A stretch of DNA of 64,000 bases from Haloterrigena sp. KLK7 (GTDB lineage Archaea; Halobacteriota; Halobacteria; Halobacteriales; Natrialbaceae), in NCBI RefSeq assembly GCF_037914945.1, contig NZ_CP149789.1, forward strand, positions 1 to 64,000, written 5' to 3'. The stretch's first letter is position 1; every line of letters starts with the position of its first letter. Both the position numbers and the translations under genes were made by a program. Below are positions 3,851-42,383 of the stretch, piece after piece. The notes below the pieces were generated by a model. It saw nothing but the letters and a program-made list of their open reading frames with translations. It did no database searches and was not told the origin of the DNA.

Positions 3851-4156
3851 ATGTCGGGTAGTACTCGAGAGCCAGAAATTGTTCGCGTCTCTCAGAAAGG
3901 ACAGACGACGATTCCGAAGTCGTTGCGCGAGAAATACGGGATCGACACACCTGGTGAGGTGTTCATCTATGAGGAAGGTGAGCGCATTGTCGTCGAGCCT
4001 GTCCCTTCGCTTGAGGAACTGGAAGGAATCCACGCGACTGGCGACCGCAACCCGGGCGATGTGATCGAGAAAGTCCGGGAGGTAAAGCGTGAGGAACGTC
4101 AACGCGAGAAAGAGCGTGCCGACCGTCTCCGACCGAAGGATGCTGCCAACGAATGA
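3851..4156 (+). CDS. vapB: AbrB/VapB-type antitoxin
   Basis: 101 residues with the swapped-hairpin AbrB/MazE signature at 10-35: VRVSQKGQTTIPKSLREKYG. The C-terminal half is highly charged (EKVREVKREERQREKERADR) and should wrap the toxin. It overlaps the PIN toxin gene by four bases (ATGA), the normal coupling of VapBC pairs. Upstream, AGTAGTA repeats near 3815-3840 may be the autoregulatory operator. The protein neutralises the VapC ribonuclease and represses the operon by analogy with the family. Confidence 0.9.
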   Translation: MSGSTREPEIVRVSQKGQTTIPKSLREKYGIDTPGEVFIYEEGERIVVEPVPSLEELEGIHATGDRNPGDVIEKVREVKREERQREKERADRLRPKDAANE

Positions 4157-4590
4157 CCGAGAGGTATGTATTCGACACTGAGGCGATTATCGCGTATCTC
4201 TACAACGAACCGGGGAAAGATGTCATTGCGAAGTACCTCATGGACGTCCGAAACGGTGCCGCCGACGGGCTGTTGACTGAGGCGAACGCCGCCGAGGTGT
4301 TCTATCTCGTTGCCCGCTTTGAAGGTGTAGACGACAAGCCGACTACCGACTCCCTTCGGACCGCCGATCGTGACGTCCGAGCACTCGAGCGGTGGGGGCT
4401 ACAGCTTGAGTCTGCTGACTGGCGCGTAGCTGCTGAGGTGAAAGCAGACGGACAGATATCGCTAGCAGACGCTCATGCCGTCGCACTCGCCTCTGAGGCG
4501 GATGCTACTCTCGTTGCCGGCGCCGACGACGATTTCGACGAACTACCAATCGACATCGATATGATTCGGTTCCGCAACGAGGGTGTTTAG
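4153..4590 (+). CDS. vapC: PIN-domain toxin VapC
   Basis: 145 residues forming one PIN domain, a Mg2+-dependent RNase. The acidic centre is visible as D8 (YVFDTEAII), E48 (ANAAEVFYLV), D106 (ISLADAHAVALA) and D125-D126 (GADDDFDEL). Length is typical for VapC. Coupled to the antitoxin by an ATGA overlap. Targets in this family are usually tRNA or rRNA sites; the target here is unknown. The pair probably stabilises the replicon. Confidence 0.92.
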   Translation: MTERYVFDTEAIIAYLYNEPGKDVIAKYLMDVRNGAADGLLTEANAAEVFYLVARFEGVDDKPTTDSLRTADRDVRALERWGLQLESADWRVAAEVKADGQISLADAHAVALASEADATLVAGADDDFDELPIDIDMIRFRNEGV

Positions 4591-4969
4591 CTCCTCGATT
4601 CAGCTGAAAATCAGATTCACCGTTATCTGAAATCGAAAAATAACTTAAATGATTGGCTAGTAATAAAATTGATGACTGACAAACTAGTGGTCTGTCAAGT
4701 GTCGATTGATAGGCTCATCATTTAAGCAGTACCGGACGCCGAAGTTATTGTTGCCGCTGATCTCGCGGACACGAATTCGGTCTGAATCCGGGCTAACTTC
4801 TCTTGGTAGATAAGCAATCGATCATCGCGGGAGATATCGAAGAGAGCGATCTGCCTGACGTGACCCAACAGGTCGTAGTATGGACGTACGGGCAATTCGT
4901 GTTCGGATCGAATCGATCTCCGCACCGGTACGATCTGCTTCCGATGCGCTATCGAAGATACGGCTACCG
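4591..4969. other. Gene-free stretch after vapBC
   Basis: About 380 bases, AT-rich at the start (4610-4680). Several frames are open but none has a credible start or composition. The right part grades into the dispersed repeat at 4970. Confidence 0.5.
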
Positions 4970-5172
4970 ACAGCGCCACCATCCAGGATAGCGAGAAACT
5001 GCGACACGTGAACTCGGGCAGCGGGACTCCAGAGACCGCGTAACGATAGCGACAGCGCGGCTGGAGGACAACAGCGGACAGTCTCTCCCGACGAAAGTGA
5101 GGACAGTCGGCGCTGTTGGAACCCTCAACTGGTGACAGGTTTGGCACCCTCAGCGATAAGTACAGGCGAAGT
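4970..5172. repeat. Dispersed repeat, left-flank copy A
   Basis: Clear homologue of 33220-33400. Both read gaCAGCGCC-(A/G)CC-ATCCAG, share GTAACGATAGCGACAGCG and CTGTTG(A)AAccC, and end CACCCTCAGCGATAA-TACAGG. Copy A has about 22 extra bases holding an additional GGACAGTC. Both copies precede a gene that is in turn followed by the same right-flank repeat. Confidence 0.8.
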
Positions 5173-5209
5173 AATGATCGAACTCATGCTTCACAGCGAA
5201 TATTGGTGG

Positions 5210-6037
5210 TCAGCTTTCAAACGGAAGATTTCCAAGGAACTCGTCACTCTGATAATCAAGATGATCTAATCGCGGACCGAGCAGCTCACGGGTCAGGACC
5301 ACCAAGGGGTTGGTCGTTCCTTCACCAACCATTGCGATCTCCGTTCTCGTCCCATCAGCAGCTTCATCCCAGAGACCGACAACGACTTCCGCTCGATCAG
5401 CAACAATCAGCCGACTTACTTTGGGATAATTCGACTGTTCATACATCCAATCCATCTGGGGGTCCCATATCGTTGCTTCTGGAAGACGATCCCGGAAGAA
5501 ATCTCGAGCGTCTCGGCTTTTTGTTCCGGCATGGAGTTCAACTCCTCGCTTGATAGCTCTCTCCGCATAGGGGAGACACTCTTCATCAAGTAGTTCGTTG
5601 GAAGCGTAAATCAGAAACAGTTCATCTTCGGCGTTATCAGCCAACCCCCGGCAGTAGTCGTACACCTCTTCGCGCCCTTCAAGTCGTCCAACAGTGCTTT
5701 CGTCCGTTCTGTGACCCGACCGGAACTGTGAGAGCAGGTCGTCGAGTACGTCTAGATCCATCCACTCGACGTCACTTGTCAAGTAGTTCGCGCCGGTGAC
5801 GATGTTTTCATCGCGGTCGTAGTTGATTAGCCCTGCTTCGTCAAGTCGAGGAAGATGGTTGTGATGGAGAGAGATAACCGTCTGCTCGATGTTCTCGTCG
5901 TCCTCCGAAACGAGTTGTTCAGCAATCTCGGATACAGAAAGTCCGTGTGAAGTATCAGTGAGAAGAGTCAAAACCGCCCGATTAGTGGTATCTGTGAGTA
6001 GCCGAAGGAGTTCTTCGTTCTGCGAATCCATTACCAT
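5210..6037 (-). CDS. DUF7344-like winged-helix regulator with TrmB/PLD-like C-terminal domain
   Basis: 275 residues. Residues 4-75 match the haloarchaeal winged-helix family I know as DUF7344: LLRLLTDTTNRAVLTLLTD, LSVSEIAEQL, then SLHHNHLPRLDEAGLINYD. From about residue 110 there is a second globular domain with LFLIYASNELL, AIKRGVELHAGT and a strand-rich VVVGLWDEA segment. It resembles the C-terminal half of TrmB-like or phospholipase-D-like regulator domains; the ligand is unknown. The gene lies between two dispersed repeats that elsewhere flank an unrelated gene. Confidence 0.75.
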   Translation of the reverse strand: MVMDSQNEELLRLLTDTTNRAVLTLLTDTSHGLSVSEIAEQLVSEDDENIEQTVISLHHNHLPRLDEAGLINYDRDENIVTGANYLTSDVEWMDLDVLDDLLSQFRSGHRTDESTVGRLEGREEVYDYCRGLADNAEDELFLIYASNELLDEECLPYAERAIKRGVELHAGTKSRDARDFFRDRLPEATIWDPQMDWMYEQSNYPKVSRLIVADRAEVVVGLWDEAADGTRTEIAMVGEGTTNPLVVLTRELLGPRLDHLDYQSDEFLGNLPFES

Positions 6038-6149
6038 TGAATACTCCTGTTGGATAATAAAGAGAAGGTCTTAACCCACATACAATTCCTAAATATTTAT
6101 ATATTGATCATTGTTGAACTAATACTTCCCGCAACGATATTAATCGTCT

Positions 6150-6800
6150 CTCTGTAACAGCTGTTTCAGACAACATCGCGTCTGGAGAATAGGATTTCGA
6201 TAGGGCTGGACCGTCCTCTTCTGCCGAAATAGGCCAACAAAGACGCAAAGCGTCAACGCGGGGGTGCCAGCCGGTGGGACCGGCATCTTGGGTGCCGACG
6301 TGAGCGACACAGGTTAATTCACCTCGTCTTGATGCACTGCCGGGGTGCCAACCGTACCACGCACGATTAGGGTGCCAGTGTGATGAGATGGGTGGTGACC
6401 AATGTAAACAGCACGAGAGCACAGTGGGGTGCCAGCATCAACGCGCCATCTGGGTGCCACCGTGACCGCACTAGTTGGGTGCCGTCTTGTGCGAACCACT
6501 ACGGTTCCAGCAACAGCGGATCACGTGGACTCGAACTCACTCATGAACTCGACAGCAATGGGGACTGTCGATTGCGAGTTCCAGTTCAGTGAGACGCTGT
6601 TTACATTGCATCTATGAGAGACACAGCGCCGCGTCGGCCAACACGCGACAGGGGGATGTCAGTCCTGGCAGCAAGCGGATCACTGAACTCGAGCAACAAC
6701 AAGTGACTGTCCATCTTGCTTGTTCCAGAGGGTGTTAGAGAACGATCCGCAGGACGTTCTTTTTACCCAATCTGGAGCGGACTATCCGTTCACTACACAG
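6150..6800. repeat. Long dispersed repeat, right-flank copy A (GGGTGCC array)
   Basis: About 650 bases homologous to 33731-34430; a shortened copy lies at 38435-38628. It begins CTGTAACAGCTGTTTCAGAC and ends near CTATCCGTTCACTACAC. It contains seven GGGTGCC heptamers at 6262, 6290, 6343, 6370, 6427, 6452 and 6477. Their spacings are 28, 53, 27, 57, 25 and 25 bases, roughly one or two units of about 26. GACTGTC motifs follow. Frames across it are shadows of the heptamer (His-Pro repeats) rather than genes. Confidence 0.8.
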
Positions 6801-6892
6801 GCGGATGTGAGTAGAAAATGCAGAGCATGTATCTTCCGAGAACGCTGGCTGAATGAAGCTTTATCCGACCCACGTACCATACTATTGCGTGT

Positions 6893-9800
6893 ATGAGTGA
6901 ACCAGTCGGGTCTTCTGGTCCAATGTTCTGGGGAGACATCGATGACACAGAGGCCCTCCAGCGGTATCGGGCGCTCGTGACTGCGATCGACGATGGACTC
7001 TACCAACTCGACGCCGAAGATCGATTCATCGCGGTAAACGACGAAATCGTCGAGTTAACGGGATACGCACGTGAGGAACTTCTCGGCGAACACGTCTCTC
7101 TGCTACTCGACAATGACGACTCGACTATCGAACCGTCCCTCACGAATCTTACCGATCAAAGCGAACAACTCGAGTGCGCCGTACAGACTGCCGAGGGAGA
7201 CCGCGTTCGTTGCGAAGTACGGGTCTCCCTACTCGAATCGGACGGCACGGTACAGGGAACCGTTGGTATCGTTCAAGATATTACCGACAGCAGTCGACCG
7301 GATCAGCCACTCGAAGAATCCGACCAGCGGCACAACCATGAATCGACCAACGAGTGCGAACCGAGGTTCCGTGAGACGAAAACTCAACTCGAAGTCGCCA
7401 AGGCCGCTGGGTCTGTCGGCACGTGGTCATGGGACATTCAAGAAAACACTGTAACTGCGGACGAATGTCTTGCTAAATCCCACGACACGGCCCCAGAGGA
7501 GGTCACTGCGGGCGTACCAATTGAGGAATTTTTCGCCTCGGTTCATGAGGTAGACCAAGAACGAGTATGGAACCAACTCGACGAGGCAGTTGAGGAGGCG
7601 GGTGAGTTCGAGGCCGAGTACCGCATTACTGACGCGGAGGGCGACACGCTGTGGGTGGCGTCCCGTGGCGAAGTCGAGTACGACGGCAACAGTGAGCCGT
7701 GCCGAATAATCGGTGCTACCGCTGACATCACTGAACGCAAGGAAGCGGGGACAGAGTTGAAGAGAGCGACCGCCGAGGAGCAAAACCGGCTCTACGAGAC
7801 GATTATCTCCAGCACGCCTGATCTCATCTACGCCTTCGACCTTGATTACCGCTTCACGTTCGCCAACGATGCGGTGCTGGAGATGTGGGGCCAAACCCGT
7901 GAGGAAGCCATCGGGAAAACGCTGCGGGAGATTGGCTACGAACCGTGGCACGCGGAGATGCATGAGCGTGAAATCGACGAGGTCATCGAGACGAAAGAGC
8001 CCATTCGCGGTGAGGTTGCATTCCCACACGCCGAACGTGGCCGTCGCGTCTATGAGTATATCTTCGCACCTGTGCTCAACGACGACGATGAAGTCGAAAC
8101 CATCGCCGGGACATCACGCGACGTCACCGAACGCAGGCAGGCCGAGGAGAACCTCCAGAAGAATAAAGAACGATTCCACGCGCTGGTCACTGCCAGTTCA
8201 GACGTGGTGTATCGCATGAGCCCTGATTGGAGCGAAATGCACGAGTTCACGGGCAAAGAGCTCCTCGCCGATACAGACGAACCGACCAGTGACTGGCTCG
8301 ATAAATACATCCATCCGGACGAACAGCCGCGCGTCACGGAGGCTATCGACGAAGCAATCCAGACGAAGAGCACGTTCGAGTTGGAACACCGGGTGGAACA
8401 GGACGACGGGAGCACGGGCTGGACGTTCTCGCGTGCGGTACCGATGCTGAACGAGGACGGTGAGATCGAGGAATGGATCGGCATGGCGAGCGATATCACC
8501 GAGCGGAAACGACGCGAACAGGAACTCGAGCGGTCCGAGCAGCGCTACCGGACCCTTGCAGAGTACTTCCCGAACGGACTCGTCACGCTGTTTGACCACG
8601 ACCTCGAGTACACGCTGGCGGCCGGCCAGGGCTTCGATCAAATCCCGTTCGAGCCCGACGATCTCGAGGGGCACAACTTCTACGACGTGTGGCCCGACGA
8701 AACAGTCGACGAATTCGAGCCGGCGATCCTGGCCGCGCTCGAGGGCGAGCAGCAGTCGGTCGAGTTCACATACGGCGGCCGCGAGTGGGTCCTCCACGCG
8801 GTCCCCATCACCGACGAACGCGGCGACGTCTTCGCCGGCATGACGATGGCTCAGGACATCACTGAGCAGAAGGAGCGCGAACAGTATCTCCAGGACGCTA
8901 AGTCCCAGCTCGAGGCGGCGACGGAGGCCGGCGCGGTCGGGACATGGGAGTGGGATGTCCAGAACGACGAGATGTGCGTCAGTCCGTCGTTCGCGCGGAC
9001 GTTCGGCGTCGATCCGGACGCGGCCCAGCAGGGCGTCTCGCTTGACCGGTTCATCGACGGCATCCACGAGGACGATCGCGAGCGGGTGGTCGCCGCGATC
9101 GAGGACGCCGTCGAGACCTGTGACGAGTACAAATCAGAGTACCGTGTGTGGAACGCCGACGGCGAGCTCCGCTGGGTCGTCGCCCGTGGCCACGTTGAGT
9201 GCGACGACGGCGAACCGATCACCTTCCCTGGCGCGCTGACCGACATCACCGAGCGCAAGCGCGCCGAACTCGAGCGCCAGCGCAACAAGGAGCAACTCGA
9301 GACGCTGTTTGAGGTCCTGCCGATCGGCGTCGTGGTTGCCGACGCAGACGGGTCGCTGATCAGAGCTAATGACACGGCCAAGGAGATCTGGGGTGGCGAC
9401 GTGTTCAACGCAGAGTCGGTCGCGGAGTACGACAAGTACCCCGCGGTATGGGCGGATACGGGCGAGCCGATCGCTCCGGACGACTGGACGATGTCCCAAG
9501 TTCTCCAGGGAACCGAGGTTACGGAGCCGAACATCTACGAGATCAGTGCATTCGATGGTGAACAGCGCATCATTATGGAGCACGGCATGCCGGTCAGAGA
9601 CGAGTGCGGCGACGTGAGCCACGCCGTCATCACCCTGACGGATATTACCGAGCGCCGTGAGTACCAGCGTAAACTCGAGGAGTCCAACGAGCGGTTGGAG
9701 CAGTTCGCCTACGCGGCCTCCCACGACCTGCAAGAGCCCCTGCGGATGATCACGAGCTACCTCCAGCTACTCGAAAAGCGCTACGACGACGCCTTTGACG

Positions 9801-10369
9801 AGGACGGCGAGGAGTTTCTCGAGTACGCCGTCAATGGGGCTGAGCGTATGCGCGAGATGATCGATGCGTTACTCGAGTACTCGCGGATCGAAACGCAGGG
9901 TGATCCGTTCGAACCCGTCGACCTGAACGAGACTCTCGAGGACGTGCTCGCGGATCTCCAGGTCCAGATTGTGGAGAGCGGCGCCGAAGTTATGGTCGAG
10001 GACCTTCCCCACCTCGAGGGCGACGCCAGCCAGCTCCGACAGTTGTTCCAGAATTTGCTCGACAACGCGATCACGTATAGCGGCGACGAGCCGCCGCTGA
10101 TCCACGTCGACGCAGATCGACGCGGCGACAAGTGGGTGATCTCGGTCGAAGACAACGGCATCGGTATCGAGCCCGACAAGCAAGAACGGGTATTCACGGT
10201 CTTCGATCGGCTCCACAGTCGCGAGGAGTACGACGGGACAGGCATCGGCCTCGCGCTCTGCCAGCGTATCGTCAAGCGCCACGGTGGTGAGATCTGGGTC
10301 GAGTCCGAGCCCGGCGAGGGAGCGACGTTCTCGTTCACGCTCCCAGCTGGAAGCGAACACGATCTATGA
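6893..10369 (+). CDS. Seven-PAS sensor histidine kinase
   Basis: 1158 residues, no membrane segment, so probably cytoplasmic. Successive PAS/PAC modules lie at about 24-137, 163-283, 298-420, 424-547, 548-665, 668-795 and 798-925, most ending in the PAC signature DITERK. HisKA follows with the phospho-acceptor His944 in SHDLQEPLRMI. The HATPase_c domain shows N (FQNLLDNAI), G1 (VEDNGIGI) and G2 (GTGIGLALC) boxes. No receiver domain is fused or adjacent, so the partner is elsewhere; orphan response regulators sit at 37.8 and 39.0 kb. The 3' two-thirds look more GC-rich than the first PAS repeats, suggesting mosaic origin. The catalytic core closely resembles the kinase at 60.0 kb. Confidence 0.93.
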   Translation: MSEPVGSSGPMFWGDIDDTEALQRYRALVTAIDDGLYQLDAEDRFIAVNDEIVELTGYAREELLGEHVSLLLDNDDSTIEPSLTNLTDQSEQLECAVQTAEGDRVRCEVRVSLLESDGTVQGTVGIVQDITDSSRPDQPLEESDQRHNHESTNECEPRFRETKTQLEVAKAAGSVGTWSWDIQENTVTADECLAKSHDTAPEEVTAGVPIEEFFASVHEVDQERVWNQLDEAVEEAGEFEAEYRITDAEGDTLWVASRGEVEYDGNSEPCRIIGATADITERKEAGTELKRATAEEQNRLYETIISSTPDLIYAFDLDYRFTFANDAVLEMWGQTREEAIGKTLREIGYEPWHAEMHEREIDEVIETKEPIRGEVAFPHAERGRRVYEYIFAPVLNDDDEVETIAGTSRDVTERRQAEENLQKNKERFHALVTASSDVVYRMSPDWSEMHEFTGKELLADTDEPTSDWLDKYIHPDEQPRVTEAIDEAIQTKSTFELEHRVEQDDGSTGWTFSRAVPMLNEDGEIEEWIGMASDITERKRREQELERSEQRYRTLAEYFPNGLVTLFDHDLEYTLAAGQGFDQIPFEPDDLEGHNFYDVWPDETVDEFEPAILAALEGEQQSVEFTYGGREWVLHAVPITDERGDVFAGMTMAQDITEQKEREQYLQDAKSQLEAATEAGAVGTWEWDVQNDEMCVSPSFARTFGVDPDAAQQGVSLDRFIDGIHEDDRERVVAAIEDAVETCDEYKSEYRVWNADGELRWVVARGHVECDDGEPITFPGALTDITERKRAELERQRNKEQLETLFEVLPIGVVVADADGSLIRANDTAKEIWGGDVFNAESVAEYDKYPAVWADTGEPIAPDDWTMSQVLQGTEVTEPNIYEISAFDGEQRIIMEHGMPVRDECGDVSHAVITLTDITERREYQRKLEESNERLEQFAYAASHDLQEPLRMITSYLQLLEKRYDDAFDEDGEEFLEYAVNGAERMREMIDALLEYSRIETQGDPFEPVDLNETLEDVLADLQVQIVESGAEVMVEDLPHLEGDASQLRQLFQNLLDNAITYSGDEPPLIHVDADRRGDKWVISVEDNGIGIEPDKQERVFTVFDRLHSREEYDGTGIGLALCQRIVKRHGGEIWVESEPGEGATFSFTLPAGSEHDL

Positions 10370-11070
10370 ACAGCCTGTATTGACCGCTCACCGTTTACAC
10401 CAGCTGAGCAGTTGAGTTGCTGAATACAGGACAGTATTCAGCACGCTTCTTTTGGCAGCTGTCGGAGAGATAGATAGTCGCTTCGGTAGCACCTTCATCT
10501 GTACTTACCGTTTGTTGGGTAGTCACAGAGAGGGTATGGGAACTTTTCTATGACAGCCCGTGTTCCAGCGTATCACTGAACTCGAGTTCATGCTTGAACT
10601 CCACATTAGTTGTTGAATTCTACATTTACCCGGTCTGACCCGCCTTCTTGACCTTGAGAACGTTATCTCGGAGGGACACTGCCTAGTTACGATTCTGACG
10701 CAAAACGGTGTTTCAGCGGCTGTTATCCCTCTTATGATGGGATCTGTGACTATCACCTCTCAGGCGATGTGGACTGAAGCAGTCGAATTTTCGCCGCTCA
10801 GAGAACAGCGCCCCTTTGTATCAGGTTCCCACGTCTTGCGGTTTCCCTTACCTAGACAGTGCGGCAGATGGAGCTGGATACTCAATCGCATCAGCTCGTG
10901 CGGTGTCGCCTCGCGGTCCACAATATCTAATTGAATGCCGCTACTAGAGCCGTTGAGCAGGTGAATTCTGGCCGGGGCACATAGAATTCTAACCACCTCG
11001 CTTTTCAGACCGTATCTGAACAGCGCCCAGATCCCAACGGACTTAAACGGATTACTCACCAAATATCAAT
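10370..11070. other. 700-base gene-free region with a dispersed repeat
   Basis: Contains the GTACTTACCGTTTG repeat at about 10502-10610, shared with 34648-34760 and 42011-42080, and a TATTCAGCACG motif at 10434. A 100-codon frame on the minus strand (10760-11062) has unusual composition and no start support. The last 60 bases are AT-rich and should hold the promoter of the next gene. Confidence 0.55.
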
Positions 11071-32627: not shown

Positions 32628-32999
32628 GGGAGTGATAACGGGCCATAGAGTGATAGAATTATCGCCTTTTATCCCTACAACCGAATACATAGAATGGGAA
32701 TCAACCGTCGGCGGGACATAGGCCGGGCGAAACAAGAAATCAGAATGTATCAGTCTCTCGAGCAACGCGACGAGAGCGCTACCTAAGCAGACAGAGTCCG
32801 ACACGAGTGGAACGAATCACGCCACGAGTTCAAAAGCGAGAGTGTCGGGACTGGTCAGTTATTCTACTTTGTCGTACTTCCGACGAGTGCAACAGCAGAG
32901 GTGGCACCCGAATAGATCGCAGTAGAGAGGGAGGACGAGATGACGCGAACAGGGGCACCCCAGCGGGCGCACAGAGCCGTCAGAAACTCGAGTGAGCAC
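32628..32999. other. Gene-free stretch
   Basis: About 370 bases. It holds the promoter of the minus-strand regulator near 32640-32680 (AT-rich). No other supported feature until the GACAGTC-rich repeat starts. Confidence 0.45.
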
Positions 33000-33400
33000 C
33001 AGGTATCCAGAGTAGGGAACAGCCAGCAGTGGGACAGTCCACTCGAGAGCGACGGCGAGGAAGACAGCTGGAATGAGACTGTGGGACAGTCAGGGCGTGC
33101 CGGACCCAGAGCAGAAAGACGCAGAGACGAAAGGGGAAGAGGGACAGTCCAGCAATGCGAGCAGCGGCCCGGAGAGCAGAGTGTATCGCCCAGCAGGACA
33201 GTCAGCACCGAGAGCGCCGACAGCGCCGCCATCCAGAACAGCGAGACACTGCGAACACGTGAACTCGAGCAGTGGGATTCCGGAGACCACGTAACGATAG
33301 CGACAGCGTGGCTGTAAGACAACCGAGGACAGTCGGCTCTGTTGAATCCCTTAACTGGAGACAGGTTTAACACCCTCAGCGATAAATACAGGGGGTTCAC
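33000..33400. repeat. Dispersed repeat, left-flank copy B with GGGACAGTC motifs
   Basis: GGGACAGTC or GGACAGTC recurs near 33025, 33082, 33140, 33194 and 33327, mostly 55-60 bases apart. From 33220 to 33400 the sequence is homologous to 4970-5172 and ends CACCCTCAGCGATAAATACAGG. A 125-codon plus frame is open across it, but its Arg/Ser/Gln-rich composition is unlike local genes and I reject it. Confidence 0.7.
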
Positions 33401-33432
33401 TTATCGGTGCAGGCAGTACATTGTTACTCTGT

Positions 33433-33720
33433 ATGCCCGAAGAAGTTCTGTTCAAATCAGAGAGCAGCCAGACTCGAGAAGAAATCGCATCGTATCTTCA
33501 CAGTGTTGCTGAGAAGCTTGAACAAGGTGATGCGGTCACACTAAAATCAGGTTCCGAATCCGTGACGATGGAACCGCCAGCCCGCCCGACGTTTGAGGTC
33601 AAAGCCGAACGCGAAGGACCGACGGACGGTCCCGGTGAATTGAGTATCGAGTTCGAACTCGAATGGGAGGAGAACGGCGGTGAGGGAGACGGCGAGAGCG
33701 GCCAGTTAGAAATTGAGTGA
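33433..33720 (+). CDS. Amphi-Trp domain protein
   Basis: Start chosen at ATG 33433 (MPEEVLFKSESSQTREEIAS), 95 residues. The sequence matches the haloarchaeal amphi-Trp family: ASYLHSVAEKLEQGDAVTLK, SGSESVTMEPPARPTFEV and GELSIEFELEWEE. The family consists of small acidic proteins of unknown function, probably ligand-binding. It sits between the same repeats that flank a different gene at 5-6.8 kb. Confidence 0.85.
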   Translation: MPEEVLFKSESSQTREEIASYLHSVAEKLEQGDAVTLKSGSESVTMEPPARPTFEVKAEREGPTDGPGELSIEFELEWEENGGEGDGESGQLEIE

Positions 33721-33730
33721 TCAGTTCGCA

Positions 33731-34430
33731 TCTCTCTGTAACAGCTGTTTCAGACAACATCACATCTGAAGAATATGATTTCGATAGGGCTGGACAGTCC
33801 TCTGTCGCCGAATAGGCCGACAAAGACACACAGCGTCAGCGTGGGGTGCCAGCCGGTGGGACCGGCATCTTGGGTGCCAACGTGAGTGACACAAGTTAAT
33901 TCACCTCGTCGTGATGCACTGCCGGGGTGCCAACCGTCCCACGCACGACTAGGGTGCTGGTGTGATGAGACGGAGGGAGACCAATGTAAACAGCACGAGA
34001 GCACCAGTGAGGTGCCAGTATCGACGCCCCATCTGGGTGCCACCGTGACTGCACTAGTTAGGTTCTGTCTTGTGCGAAACACTGCGCTTCCAGCAACAGC
34101 TCACGTGGACTCGAGTTCAAGATTAAACTCGACAGCAGTAGGGGACTGTCACTTGCGAGCTCCAGTTCAGTAGGACCATCCACGAGCGACACGGCGCCGT
34201 GTCAGCCAACACGCGACAGGGGGACTGTCAGTTCTGGCAACCAGCATGTCCTGGACTCCGGCGGCTTCCAGCCGAGTGGACTGTCAGCCCTTACGATCAG
34301 CATATCACTGAACTCGAGCAACAACAAGTGACTGTCCATCGTGCGTGTTCCAGAGGGTGTCAGAGAACGATCCGCCTGCCGTTCTTTTCACCCAGTCTGT
34401 TGCGAACTTATCGGTTCAAACGACAGGTTT
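33731..34430. repeat. Long dispersed repeat, right-flank copy B
   Basis: Homologue of 6150-6800, starting CTGTAACAGCTGTTTCAGAC right after the amphi-Trp stop. It keeps most GGGTGCC heptamers in order (some mutated, for example GGGTGCT and AGGTGCC). GGACTGTC occurs near 34143, 34213, 34270 and 34329. The right end diverges around 34400, where a small membrane-protein gene ends. Confidence 0.8.
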
Positions 34431-34599
34431 AGAACGCTTGCACTAGTTCCGTGAGTGCGTACACAATAGCGACGATCCCGACTAGAAGCCCTATCGTACC
34501 CAGAAGTTGATTTCGTGGAACAACGGTTGTTTGAGACACGACCAGCAAGGCCATTAGTATGACGAGAACAGCGAGTAATCGGTCGGTGCGGTCGGACAT
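34429..34599 (-). CDS. Small two-helix membrane protein, 56 residues
   Basis: MSDRTDRLLAVLVILMALLV, then VPRNQLLGTIGLLVGIVAIV and YALTELVQAF. Two hydrophobic helices are separated by a short polar turn, with a charged N-terminus. The start and length are clean. It lies at the junction between two dispersed repeats. Function unknown; similar short membrane proteins are common in haloarchaeal accessory DNA. Confidence 0.65.
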   Translation of the reverse strand: MSDRTDRLLAVLVILMALLVVSQTTVVPRNQLLGTIGLLVGIVAIVYALTELVQAF

Positions 34600-34644
34600 A
34601 TGACAACATCATATCCGTTTGATGTGAATCGTTCGGTTCCTCAC

Positions 34645-34800
34645 CTGTACTTACCGTTTGTCGGGTAGTCACAGAGAGGTATGGGAACTTTTCTCCGCCA
34701 TCATATATTCCAGTGTATCACTGAACTCGAGTTCATGCTTGAACTCTACAGCAGCAGGGACTGTCAATTGCGAGCTCTGTTCCAGGTCGACTGTCCACCG
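34645..34800. repeat. GTACTTACCGTTTG dispersed repeat, copy 2
   Basis: CACCTGTACTTACCGTTTGT, then GGTAGTCACAGAGAGGTATG and GGGAACTTTTCT, then TATCACTGAACTCGAGTTCA. It matches 10502-10610 closely and 42011-42080 in part. It ends in GGGACTGTCAATTGCGAGCTC, linking it to the GACTGTC family. Confidence 0.7.
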
Positions 34801-38434: not shown

Positions 38435-38628
38435 CCTCTGTGTAACAGCTGTTTCAGACAACATCTCGTCTGAAGAATAGGATTTCAACAGGGTCAAATC
38501 TGGTGTCTTCCTCGCGTGATCTCGAGTGGACTGCCCATCTTGCGTGTTCCAGAGGATGTCAGAGACCGATCCGCCTGCCGTTCTGTTCACCCACTCTGGA
38601 GGGAACTATCCGTTCACTACACTTGCGT
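38435..38628. repeat. Right-flank repeat, internally deleted copy C
   Basis: Has the left end (GTAACAGCTGTTTCAGAC, then AATAGGATTTCAACAGGG) joined after about 60 bases to the right end (GTTCCAGAGGATGTCAGAG, then GAACTATCCGTTCACTAC). The central GGGTGCC array is missing. The shared outer ends of copies A and C define the repeat borders. Confidence 0.75.
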
Positions 38629-38647
38629 ACTGAACAGTCCGTACTCA

Positions 38648-38803
38648 TCACCGAACTTGTCGAAATTCGGTTCCGCCACAGGGACAGTCAGCACCGGTTC
38701 CAATCAATCGGATTTTCCCATCTGGCCAGAGACGAGCAGCGTATGACGAACTGCAATCAGTATAGATGGCTACGATTCGGTTAGCATCCTGTGCACTTTG
38801 CAT
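38648..38803 (-). CDS. Small zinc-ribbon-like protein, 51 residues
   Basis: Start chosen at 38803 (MQSAQDANRIVAIYTDCSSS). It continues YAARLWPDGKIRLIG and ADCPCGGTEFRQVR. Paralogue of the 35829-36020 protein. The first Cys pair is reduced to one cysteine (TDCSSS against CEDCGS), while C-x-C remains at the end, so metal binding may be impaired. Confidence 0.6.
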   Translation of the reverse strand: MQSAQDANRIVAIYTDCSSSYAARLWPDGKIRLIGTGADCPCGGTEFRQVR

Positions 38804-38977
38804 ATCTCGCTTTGAGCCAGCTATCGACTTCTCTGTGAGACCTACCCAGTTAGGATTGCTTTCTGTTCGATCACTAATTTGAATAGAATGAATGCTGGTA
38901 GCTTCGATAACTATCTCACATGACATCGAAGTTACCGGCTATTGGAAGTGTGCAATAGGGACGGCAACTACGAGGTC

Positions 38978-39433
38978 CTATTTTTTTGGAGGGAGTATAA
39001 CGTGATCGAGCCAGAAATCTTCAATCGCTTGTGCGAGTCGCTCAAAACGTTCCGGTGACTCTGGTTTTCGAACATAAGCGTTCGCGTGGAGATCGTACGT
39101 TTGAGCAACCTCCTCCGCTTCGTCTGACCTCGTTAGTACGATTACAGGTATCCGTTTTAACTCAGTGTGATTCTTTATCTCGGCAAGGATCTCGAGGCCG
39201 TCAGTGCTGGGGAGATGGAGATCCAGAAAAACAAGATCGGGTCGTGAAGCGTCCTCGTATGCGTCGCATCGGTTGATGAAATTGAACGCTTCATCGCCAC
39301 TGGAGACAGTTGTTACTCTATTCGTGACTTTAGTCATCTTGAACGAGTCGATGAAAGGTGAGATACTATCGGGGTCTGATTCGATAAGGAGGATGTCATA
39401 TCCTTTACCTTCCCGTGAAGATCCCTCAACCAT
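38978..39433 (-). CDS. Second stand-alone response regulator
   Basis: 151 residues, receiver domain only. Phospho-acceptor D71 (LVFLDLHLPSTDG), T101 and K123 (YVRKPESPE) are present. The acidic pocket is altered: IESDPDS replaces the usual EDN. It resembles the receiver at 37.8 kb in size and ending. The output partner is unknown. Confidence 0.9.
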   Translation of the reverse strand: MVEGSSREGKGYDILLIESDPDSISPFIDSFKMTKVTNRVTTVSSGDEAFNFINRCDAYEDASRPDLVFLDLHLPSTDGLEILAEIKNHTELKRIPVIVLTRSDEAEEVAQTYDLHANAYVRKPESPERFERLAQAIEDFWLDHVILPPKK

Positions 39434-39529: not shown

Positions 39530-39730
39530 GGTATATGTGCATCCTGTACTGAACGGTATGTGCTTCACCTGTAGTGTGCGGCTGGTTCACTGGTGTTGTC
39601 GCGAAATAATCGATATCGGACTGCTGAACTCATCCTCTGTATTCAGCGCAGTGTTTTTGACGGGTGTCTGTGATATCAATTGCGGCTTCGTTACCTACTT
39701 GACCTGTACTGAACGGCAACTGCGTGTGCT
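39530..39730. repeat. Cluster of CCTGTACTGAACGG and CTGTATTCAGC repeats
   Basis: CATCCTGTACTGAACGGT (39540), GCTTCACCTGTAGTGTGCGG (39555), CCTCTGTATTCAGCGCAGT (39645) and TTGACCTGTACTGAACGGC (39700) occur within 200 bases. The same pair of motifs occurs at 15.1 and 41.1-41.5 kb. No gene is supported between 39434 and 39842. Confidence 0.65.
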
Positions 39731-39842: not shown

Positions 39843-40754
39843 CTACGTCATGAATGGGGTGATTGAGGCGATATGCTGGGCCACTGTTGCTACCCGGAGG
39901 ATAAACGCTATTAGGAGCGCAAGAGGGATGAGACCAACCACAGCCGTCAGGAGAGCGAAAACGAATAGCATTGGCATAGGGGCAGCCGCCGTGGGAAAGG
40001 TAGCGAGCTGGACGAGTAACGCGACTGGGAGCGAAATCGCCAGCACACCGACATACAGGAGTGAGCGAGAGAGCTGTGCGAGTTCCTCCTTCATGAACGC
40101 GGTCGTAAAGTACTGCCGAGCAATGTCGAGATTCTTCAAATCCGCGCTCAAGGAATCGAGCGTGGAGAGCAGCTGGTCATGCTCATCCCCCTCGTAAGCC
40201 GATTCAAGTTGATGACATTCATGAATGTGAGTCGCGTATTCGATACCGAGGAGGGGAACGATCACCGAAGAGAGTTTATCCGATCCTGACCCGAGTTCCT
40301 CGCTAATCTGGGCACATTCCTCCGGTAGCTCATCGATAAGATGGGTATCTGGTTCATTGCTCGAGTCAGGGAGAAGGTCCTCGAGCGAACCGGCGCGTTC
40401 TTGGGTCTGCTGAAGGAGCTGTTGCAGGAAGTCGGCTGGATCGGTCGGTGGTGCGGGCTGGTCAAGTGCTGCCTGCCGATAGTCGTCTGATTGGTCGATC
40501 TCGTCTCGGAGCGACCCCGGAGACTCTAGTTCCTGGGAGAGAATTACTTGGTTAATCGCGACCACAAGGGTGATGAGCGTGATATTCCCCCCGATCAATG
40601 CGCTCGCGATATAGATCACCGGCGTGAGATTGCGGATGGCGAACTGTGAGAAGAGAGGGATAAGCACCACCACAGCCATGGTGAAGAGTATCCCAGTGGC
40701 GACCCTGAACCGATCCCCTGAGAGGAGCAACCATCGACTGAATCGGTCGTCCAT
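39843..40754 (-). CDS. Four-helix membrane protein of unknown function
   Basis: 303 residues. Two N-terminal membrane helices (about 18-38, 44-68) are separated by a soluble domain of 150 residues, LRDEIDQSDDYRQAALDQPA onwards. Two C-terminal helices lie at about 228-250 and 255-285. The N- and C-termini are probably on the same side. I recognise the arrangement from haloarchaeal conserved membrane proteins without function. It is not in an operon. Confidence 0.75.
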   Translation of the reverse strand: MDDRFSRWLLLSGDRFRVATGILFTMAVVVLIPLFSQFAIRNLTPVIYIASALIGGNITLITLVVAINQVILSQELESPGSLRDEIDQSDDYRQAALDQPAPPTDPADFLQQLLQQTQERAGSLEDLLPDSSNEPDTHLIDELPEECAQISEELGSGSDKLSSVIVPLLGIEYATHIHECHQLESAYEGDEHDQLLSTLDSLSADLKNLDIARQYFTTAFMKEELAQLSRSLLYVGVLAISLPVALLVQLATFPTAAAPMPMLFVFALLTAVVGLIPLALLIAFILRVATVAQHIASITPFMT

Positions 40755-41294
40755 TCGTTGATTGGGACTTTGCCGGTCAGCCGGAAAAGGTGTGGTGCCT
40801 CTCTCTACCTTCTCTCTGTATCAGGATTTGATCCTCCGATTACGAACGTTCTTTGTGTCCCCTATACTGACCGTGATATTCTTAGTAACAAGTGAATCAG
40901 AGATTCGGGGTTGCAGAGTGTGCCTATATATCGCTTAATACCGACTCTAGTAATCAAAATTTGATAGCAGTATGGGGTGATGGTGTATACAATCCCTCTG
41001 CATAACCGTCTTCAGCCACTCTCATAGAATGGCAGACATCGGCTGTTTCACTGGCCCAACCACAAAGCAGACTGATGGCTGTCGTTACTTCATCCCGACC
41101 TTGTGTTCAGTACTTCACCTGTATTGAACGATTCGAGTAGTTCGAAATAAAAGTCTCCACAGTCTACATTCACGCCCTCTATTCAGCACAGTTCCGCCAA
41201 CATCATCTCCACCTGAGAGTATACACTTGATTTTCCGAACAAGTGCCGAGATGGTCGTGTATATTATATAGTTCTAAACCAATATTCATATGGG
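40755..41294. other. Gene-free region with a dispersed repeat
   Basis: About 540 bases. CACCTGTATTGAACGA at 41110 and CCCTCTATTCAGCACAGT at 41183 form one copy of the repeat pair described at 39.5 kb. The flanks are AT-rich. No gene seen. Confidence 0.5.
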
Positions 41295-41426: not shown

Positions 41427-41717
41427 CGAGACTATTCTTGATAGAGTATTAAGCGACGGATGCTTCACCTGTACTGAACGGTAAGTATATATATATGAAA
41501 CGAACGGTAAAATTCTATTCAGTTATTAGATGGTGCTATTCAATTCGGTATGAGACCAAGATTCGGAAGCAGTTGTCATTTGTACATCTGAATACTCTCC
41601 CAAGGGTTACCAAAATGTCTTCATGCTCCATCGGTTTTCCACATCTTGAACAGTTTTCCTCAGATTCTGTCCCACAATCTTCCATGTGGAAATCTACGAC
41701 CCCAAACACGAAAAACT

Positions 41718-42004: not shown

Positions 42005-42185
42005 GTTCCCTGTACTTACCGTTTGTCAGGTAGTTACAGAAGGGGTATGGGAACTGTTCTATGACGCCCTGGACTGTCAATTGCCAGTTCAGTGGAACCT
42101 TCCACGAGCGACACGGCGCCGTGTGCGTCGGCCAACACACGATGGGGGGACTGTCAGACCTAGCGACCAGCGAATCACCGAACTC
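42005..42185. repeat. Composite of two dispersed repeats
   Basis: CTGTACTTACCGTTTGTCAG, then GGGTATGGGAACTGTTCTATG (third copy of that family), is joined to GGACTGTCAATTGCCAGTTC, then CACGAGCGACACGGCGCCGTG and GGGGGACTGTCAG, as in right-flank copy B (34150-34225). A 3' gene scrap follows to 42290 (ATCMEGGREETPDIFDNYEP). Confidence 0.65.
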
Positions 42186-42383
42186 GAGGAGATAGAATGT
42201 GCACGGGCTACGTGCATGGAGGGCGGCCGCGAGGAGACCCCCGACATTTTCGACAACTACGAACCGTTCATTCGCGAGAGCGACCAATGAGTGAACCTCG
42301 GCCTCGTGGCTGTTATTTGCCGGTACAGGAGTCTACTTATTATCTGACTCACTGTCTCTTCATACAATCCAGGGTGTTGCCTA

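Follow-up and report, generated by a model that had tools for sequence, protein, structure and literature searches.

The window analysed here (64,000 nucleotides) is part of contig C3, a 186.5-kb plasmid. The haloarchaeal genome in question measures 4.64 Mb, has further plasmids of 397, 212 and 8 kb and presumably belongs to the genus Haloterrigena. Two loci in the window have similar borders around different genes. Comparison by blastn within the window confirmed the first-pass annotation in that homologous left and right flanks occur at both loci in the same orientation: positions 4967-5166 match 33217-33392 (76.6 %, E 7e-41) and 6147-6792 match 33731-34418 (78.5 %, E 1e-170). The enclosed genes differ and lie on opposite strands, as had been described; Pfam identified a DUF7344 regulator of 275 aa at the first locus (5210-6037, minus strand, PF24035) and an amphi-Trp protein at the second (33421-33720, plus strand, PF20068; likely ATG at 33433). 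These are the sole genes in the two units, and no transposase match was found in either.

The flanks were found to be composite. The last 58 bp of the left flank and the first ~65 bp of the right flank are transposon arms, and the rest of each flank is a duplicated, noncoding target region of the plasmid beyond these arms. Both loci are related to an IS5-family insertion sequence but lack a transposase. Such elements, here called type I, have the inverted repeat GGCTCTGTTGAAA, an 8-bp target duplication and constant arms of ~58 and ~65 bp. Target duplications, for which the first-pass annotation had proposed aligning the flank borders, are present at both units and are 8 bp long. Unit 1, the DUF7344 element (5109-6207), has a left arm (5109-5166, plus strand, nhmmer 71.6 bits) that opens with the terminal inverted repeat (TIR) GGCGCTGTTGGAA and closes with CGATAAGTACAGG (5154-5166), and a right arm (6142-6207, plus strand) that ends in TTTCGATAGGGCT; it is bordered by GGACAGTC on the left (5101-5108, plus strand) and GGACCGTC on the right (6208-6215, plus strand), which agree at 7 of 8 positions. 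In unit 2, the amphi-Trp element (33335-33791), the left arm (33335-33392, plus strand, found with the nhmmer profile) has the TIR GGCTCTGTTGAAT and ends in CGATAAATACAGG (33380-33392), the right arm together with the preceding TCAGTTCGCA covers 33721-33791 (plus strand), and GGACAGTC is present on both sides (33327-33334 and 33792-33799, plus strand, 8 of 8). The noncoding host region is present in the window at 4967-5108, left of unit 1 (homologous to 33217-33334, to contig C2 and to sister plasmids), at 6208-6728, right of unit 1, at 32882-34345, where it borders unit 2 on the left (32882-33334) and right (33792-34345), and at 42071-42188. The words GGACWGTC and GGGTGCC recur in it, and copies of it are found on C2, on C3 and in sister genomes.

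The genome has a third complete flank pair on a different plasmid (C2:256212-257656), where it encloses two genes, one of HTH_10 type and one small DUF7344 gene. The flanks are thus paired at three loci rather than mostly unpaired. The three elements share site, orientation and target duplication and differ in cargo, which supports the earlier suggestion of cargo exchange between constant borders. The C2 and 33-kb copies also have a common upstream gene for a conjugation-coupling-type ATPase (NCBIfam match below the cut-off of the model), which makes the noncoding region around the elements part of a segmental duplication. One segmental duplication followed by the insertion of one gene does not account for the arrangement, since the insertion itself is common to the copies: they agree in the 8-bp duplication and in the derived right end TTTCGATAG, which occurs in 3 of 44 elements and only in these, while a sister genome (G003) has the exact empty site with the host region uninterrupted and a single GGACAGTC. 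We infer that cargo exchange is an active process.

The pattern of same site and different cargo is repeated in the same host region by a second element type (type II; TIR AGGGTGTCAGAGA, 9-bp duplication GTGTTCCAG). The type II element next to unit 1 (6729-10559, minus strand; TIR AGGGTGTYAGAGAACG, duplication TTGTTCCAG/GTGTTCCAG, 8 of 9) encodes a multi-PAS histidine kinase of 1158 aa (6893-10369, plus strand, identified with Pfam). At the corresponding site beside unit 2 there is a degenerate type II element (34346-34694, minus strand) with a 56-aa membrane-protein ORF (34429-34599, minus strand). The element at GTGTTCCAG on C2 carries a 77-aa membrane-protein ORF, and those in Haloterrigena turkmenica carry other cargo. 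The scan for type II elements gave a weaker signal than that for type I (eight matches compared to 1.4 in controls, five of the eight at this GTGTTCCAG site). Both types meet at 38.4-38.6 kb, where the right flank has matches to its two ends at 38436-38493 and 38529-38622. This had been taken for an internally deleted right flank, but an internal deletion alone does not describe it. A type I right arm (38436-38495, plus strand, nhmmer 63.7 bits), with no left arm found nearby, is followed by a type II right arm (38554-38636, minus strand) beside a zinc-ribbon gene (38648-38926). Two H. turkmenica loci (L062 and L066) have the same stretch with ~95 % identity up to the type II target GTGTTCCAG, past which it runs on without the second element.

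Profiles of both type I arms were matched across Natrialbaceae. In 2.08 Mb of loci, 42 inverted-end pairs had 8-bp duplications identical at 7 or more positions, compared to 0.07 in shifted controls; loci from outside the host were mostly fetched for their resemblance to the arms, and counts there are not frequencies. The GGCTCTGTTGAAA ends occur in elements with and without a transposase. Full-length relatives encode a transposase of 273 aa (Pfam DDE_Tnp_1), which matches the IS5 family model NF033579 with 208.7 bits (cut-off 140), and in transposase-bearing elements the extra gene is placed after the transposase gene. One such element on the host plasmid (C3:161296-163572; L053 17296-19572) has a perfect 8-bp duplication AATCAAAA and a passenger that we take to be isopentenyl-diphosphate-isomerase-like (Pfam gave FMN_dh); its transposase gene, the host's nearly complete type I copy, is interrupted by one stop. 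Another (L132, 2661-5699) has a transposase, a perfect 8-bp duplication and a presumably IlvD-like passenger gene. According to heuristic gene calls, transposase-less elements carry DUF7344, HTH_10, HalOD1, amphi-Trp, PAS, response-regulator, histidine-kinase, methyltransferase, acetyltransferase, Lrp-type and membrane or lipoprotein genes. At two loci of genome G004 only the innermost flank pieces are present; there GGCTCTGTTGAAA and an inverted copy of it enclose a small HalOD1 gene, with 8-bp duplications ACTATTTC and ACTGAGTA. The target duplications support movement of whole units, probably by the IS5-type transposase. An IS6-family origin, considered because the TIR resembles that of IS26, was rejected, as the partner transposase belongs to the IS5 family and the IS6 type is represented in the host by no more than a 106-aa fragment. 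IS200/605-like ends, suggested by a hairpin in the right arm, were dropped once the target duplications appeared.

Just as the first-pass annotation was right about exchange but overlooked that the borders are transposon ends, it also overlooked a finer pair of motifs at the exchange points. A 13-bp L motif (CGKTMAGTACAGG), which is the end of the left arm, opens the cargo slot, and an R motif (TCAGTTCGCAC..GTAGT; also given as TCAGTTCGCACRYGTAGTTRC), the start of the right arm, closes it. In unit 1 the L motif is CGATAAGTACAGG at 5154-5166; in unit 2 it is CGATAAATACAGG at 33380-33392, and the R motif TCAGTTCGCA begins at 33721. The motifs were defined after inspection of the data. L was found 145 times, compared to 9 in reversed sequence; for the plasmids of the host, the choice of which did not depend on arm similarity, the counts were 23 and 1. 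On the cargo side 40 alignments ended at L (null 1.9, with a maximum of 6 among 50 draws), and on the arm side 130 did so. R behaved like L, but its counts were smaller (15 and 13, each with a null of 1.2). The L motif follows type I and type II arms, at least one more recurrent upstream sequence and, directly, transposase stop codons, and it is also found joined to R.

Homologues of the unit 1 DUF7344 gene (86-88 % DNA identity) start right after L behind other upstream sequences, and many amphi-Trp homologues span L at the start to R at the end in unrelated contexts; right-hand borders were clear for amphi-Trp and not clear for DUF7344. Where the same cargo stands behind upstream sequences alike only in L, these mostly agree at 5-12 of 40 bp, about chance. 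For example, the cargo of a type II element (L065) and that of a type I element (L069) are 95.4 % identical over at least 500 bp, with 6 of 40 upstream positions identical. In the window, L is present in the type II element (10498-10510, minus strand), in its degenerate counterpart (34644-34656, minus strand) and at the end of a type II left arm (42009-42021, minus strand), and R stands at the end of the type II right arm at 38554-38636. Further L motifs on the minus strand lie beside a response-regulator gene (39543-39555; gene 38978-39433), beside the gene at 39843-40754 (40861-40873; same cargo start behind a type I arm in L086) and at 41468-41480, the cargo of which recurs at C2:378005 (95 % over 246 bp) behind a different upstream sequence. 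A composite R-L site, GCACACGCAGTTGCCGTTCAGTACAGG, is present at 39703-39729 (minus strand).

Composite R-L sites were found in 36 of 125 Natrialbaceae genomes (none with a reversed-pattern control), and a wider draw of the order gave one matching genome outside the family. Exact matches in named records came from Natrinema zhouii, Natronorubrum thiooxidans and Natronolimnohabitans innermongolicus; a search of viral contigs did not find the core motif. Head-to-tail R-L junctions separate single genes in gene islands, and at two loci (L288, 9299-9828; L289, 9823-10442) a single gene lies between two direct R-L sites. Two chromosomal islands from two genera (L290 and L292) contain many L and R motifs and are rearranged between genomes; their genes are DUF7344-, HalOD1-, response-regulator-, PAS-kinase- and zinc-ribbon-like.

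Across the family, the border motif seems to mark the points at which one passenger has taken the place of another, and the arrangement resembles a previously undescribed gene-cassette system. Judged from the breakpoints, the passengers would be L-gene-R modules, exchanged as cassettes by recombination at the L and R sites. A site-specific recombinase acting in trans would probably carry out this exchange, and transposases of insertion sequences would carry whole units to new places. Full-length insertion sequences have the same slot behind their transposase gene, and it recurs in other element types. We consider it likely that transposon-borne slots, exchange of L-gene-R cassettes and transposase-moved units together explain the data. 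Within this explanation site-specific recombination is preferred over homologous exchange with moderate confidence, because some pairs of upstream contexts share only the motif.

Homologous recombination or gene conversion between the arms (55-65 bp per side) and the duplicated plasmid regions, with L and R being simply the innermost conserved bases of the arms, is the strongest alternative, albeit an unlikely one. It could operate at the three same-site loci, where the arms are much alike and so are the surrounding regions (76-91 %). It does not explain the same cargo in places where the upstream sequences have just the 13-bp motif in common, a stretch too short for efficient homologous recombination, nor the use of the same motif at R-L junctions and in slots adjacent to transposase genes. 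Less probable still is that L and R are terminal repeats of an additional transposon or MITE family, nested in the arms of the insertion sequences and moving by transposition. L does resemble the reverse complement of R (CGTTCASTACASGTG), but head-to-tail modules abut without duplicated bases between them, and the position of the slot relative to the preceding transposase stop codon is fixed.

It is also very unlikely that no cargo was exchanged and that different cassette transposons entered each copy of the region separately, at GGACAGTC as a preferred target. Some insertion sequences have target preferences and the duplication is the same at all three sites; however, other elements use unrelated 8-bp targets, and GGACAGTC occurs several times in the region, yet the same copy was used in the same orientation. 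The right end confined to these three elements and the repetition of the pattern by type II elements at GTGTTCCAG also argue against separate insertions. A role of L and R as promoters or operators conserved near regulatory genes, with coincidental breakpoints, is hardly credible: many cargos are regulators and L has a partial dyad, but gene direction relative to L-to-R is mixed (roughly 13 plus and 9 minus, with the unit 1 gene minus and the unit 2 gene plus) and breakpoints at L are ~20-fold above chance.

For the favoured exchange of L-gene-R modules by site-specific recombination, no recombinase linked to the L and R sites was found. Each large host plasmid encodes a tyrosine recombinase (C3:52797-53414; C2:307302-307910 and 329066-329686; C4:31006-31596; open frame 389-396 aa), which offers a lead only and is unlinked to the sites; PF00589 proteins were listed for six genomes. 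A search for clean excision of an L-R module gave none, the one candidate being confounded by flanking 490-bp repeats.

Several known systems share features with these elements. Mobile insertion cassettes (MICs) and transporter ISs likewise have insertion sequence ends around passenger genes, with or without a transposase, and are thought to be mobilised in trans (PMC3129680). The present elements share with MICs and IS5 derivatives the TIRs of an autonomous insertion sequence, a fixed-length duplication and a passenger without transposase. They differ in that the passengers appear to be exchanged in a fixed slot, the borders of which are common to several element types, and that the same modules are also found outside any recognised insertion sequence arms. 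Xer/pdif modules of Acinetobacter plasmids are similar in having genes between short recombination-like sites, in arrays on plasmids and the chromosome and often adjoining insertion sequences (PMC12907356). The 11-6-11 layout of dif is absent from the R-L site: its consensus has an imperfect dyad only, not the two 11-bp inverted arms and 6-bp centre of a 28-bp pdif site. In addition, paired sites are direct and the host is archaeal. A fixed-spacing palindrome for the R-L site was weakly supported and was set aside.

Integron gene cassettes, including archaeal integrons and CALINs, also form head-to-tail single-gene arrays with one site per junction (PMC9668308), the arrangement seen at L288 and L289. 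Here, however, genes have either orientation, no integrase is linked, and an attC-like fold was rejected for three R-L sites (DNA fold z-scores 1.11, -0.85 and -0.48). The text of the archaeal integron paper does not contain 'Halobacter' (PMC9668308). Haloarchaeal MITEs, PATEs and SMRs of Haloquadratum are likewise transposase-free, some with target duplications; the MITEs are short, four of five families are noncoding, and for the one ORF-bearing family reported no cargo exchange is described (PMC3119063). A description of the L/R cassette system was not found in the open-access literature.

More tentatively, and at somewhat less than even chances, Natrialbaceae may possess an archaeal recombination system dedicated to gene cassettes, in which a putative recombinase acts at a site of its own, CGnTCAGTtcGCACacGTAGTTgCCGTTCAGTACAGG. 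This system would load single genes into gene islands and into the slots of several insertion sequence families, and may drive the spread of haloarchaeal regulator families (DUF7344, HalOD1, HTH_10 and PAS kinases). If so, haloarchaea would have a modular gene-capture platform that works like integrons or pdif modules with different sites and is built into insertion sequences. It would provide a testable explanation for near-identical single regulatory genes in unrelated places on haloarchaeal plasmids, and the border motif could be used for cassette annotation. Just left of the first flank (3851-4590), Pfam identified genes for a MazE-like antitoxin and then a PIN-domain toxin.
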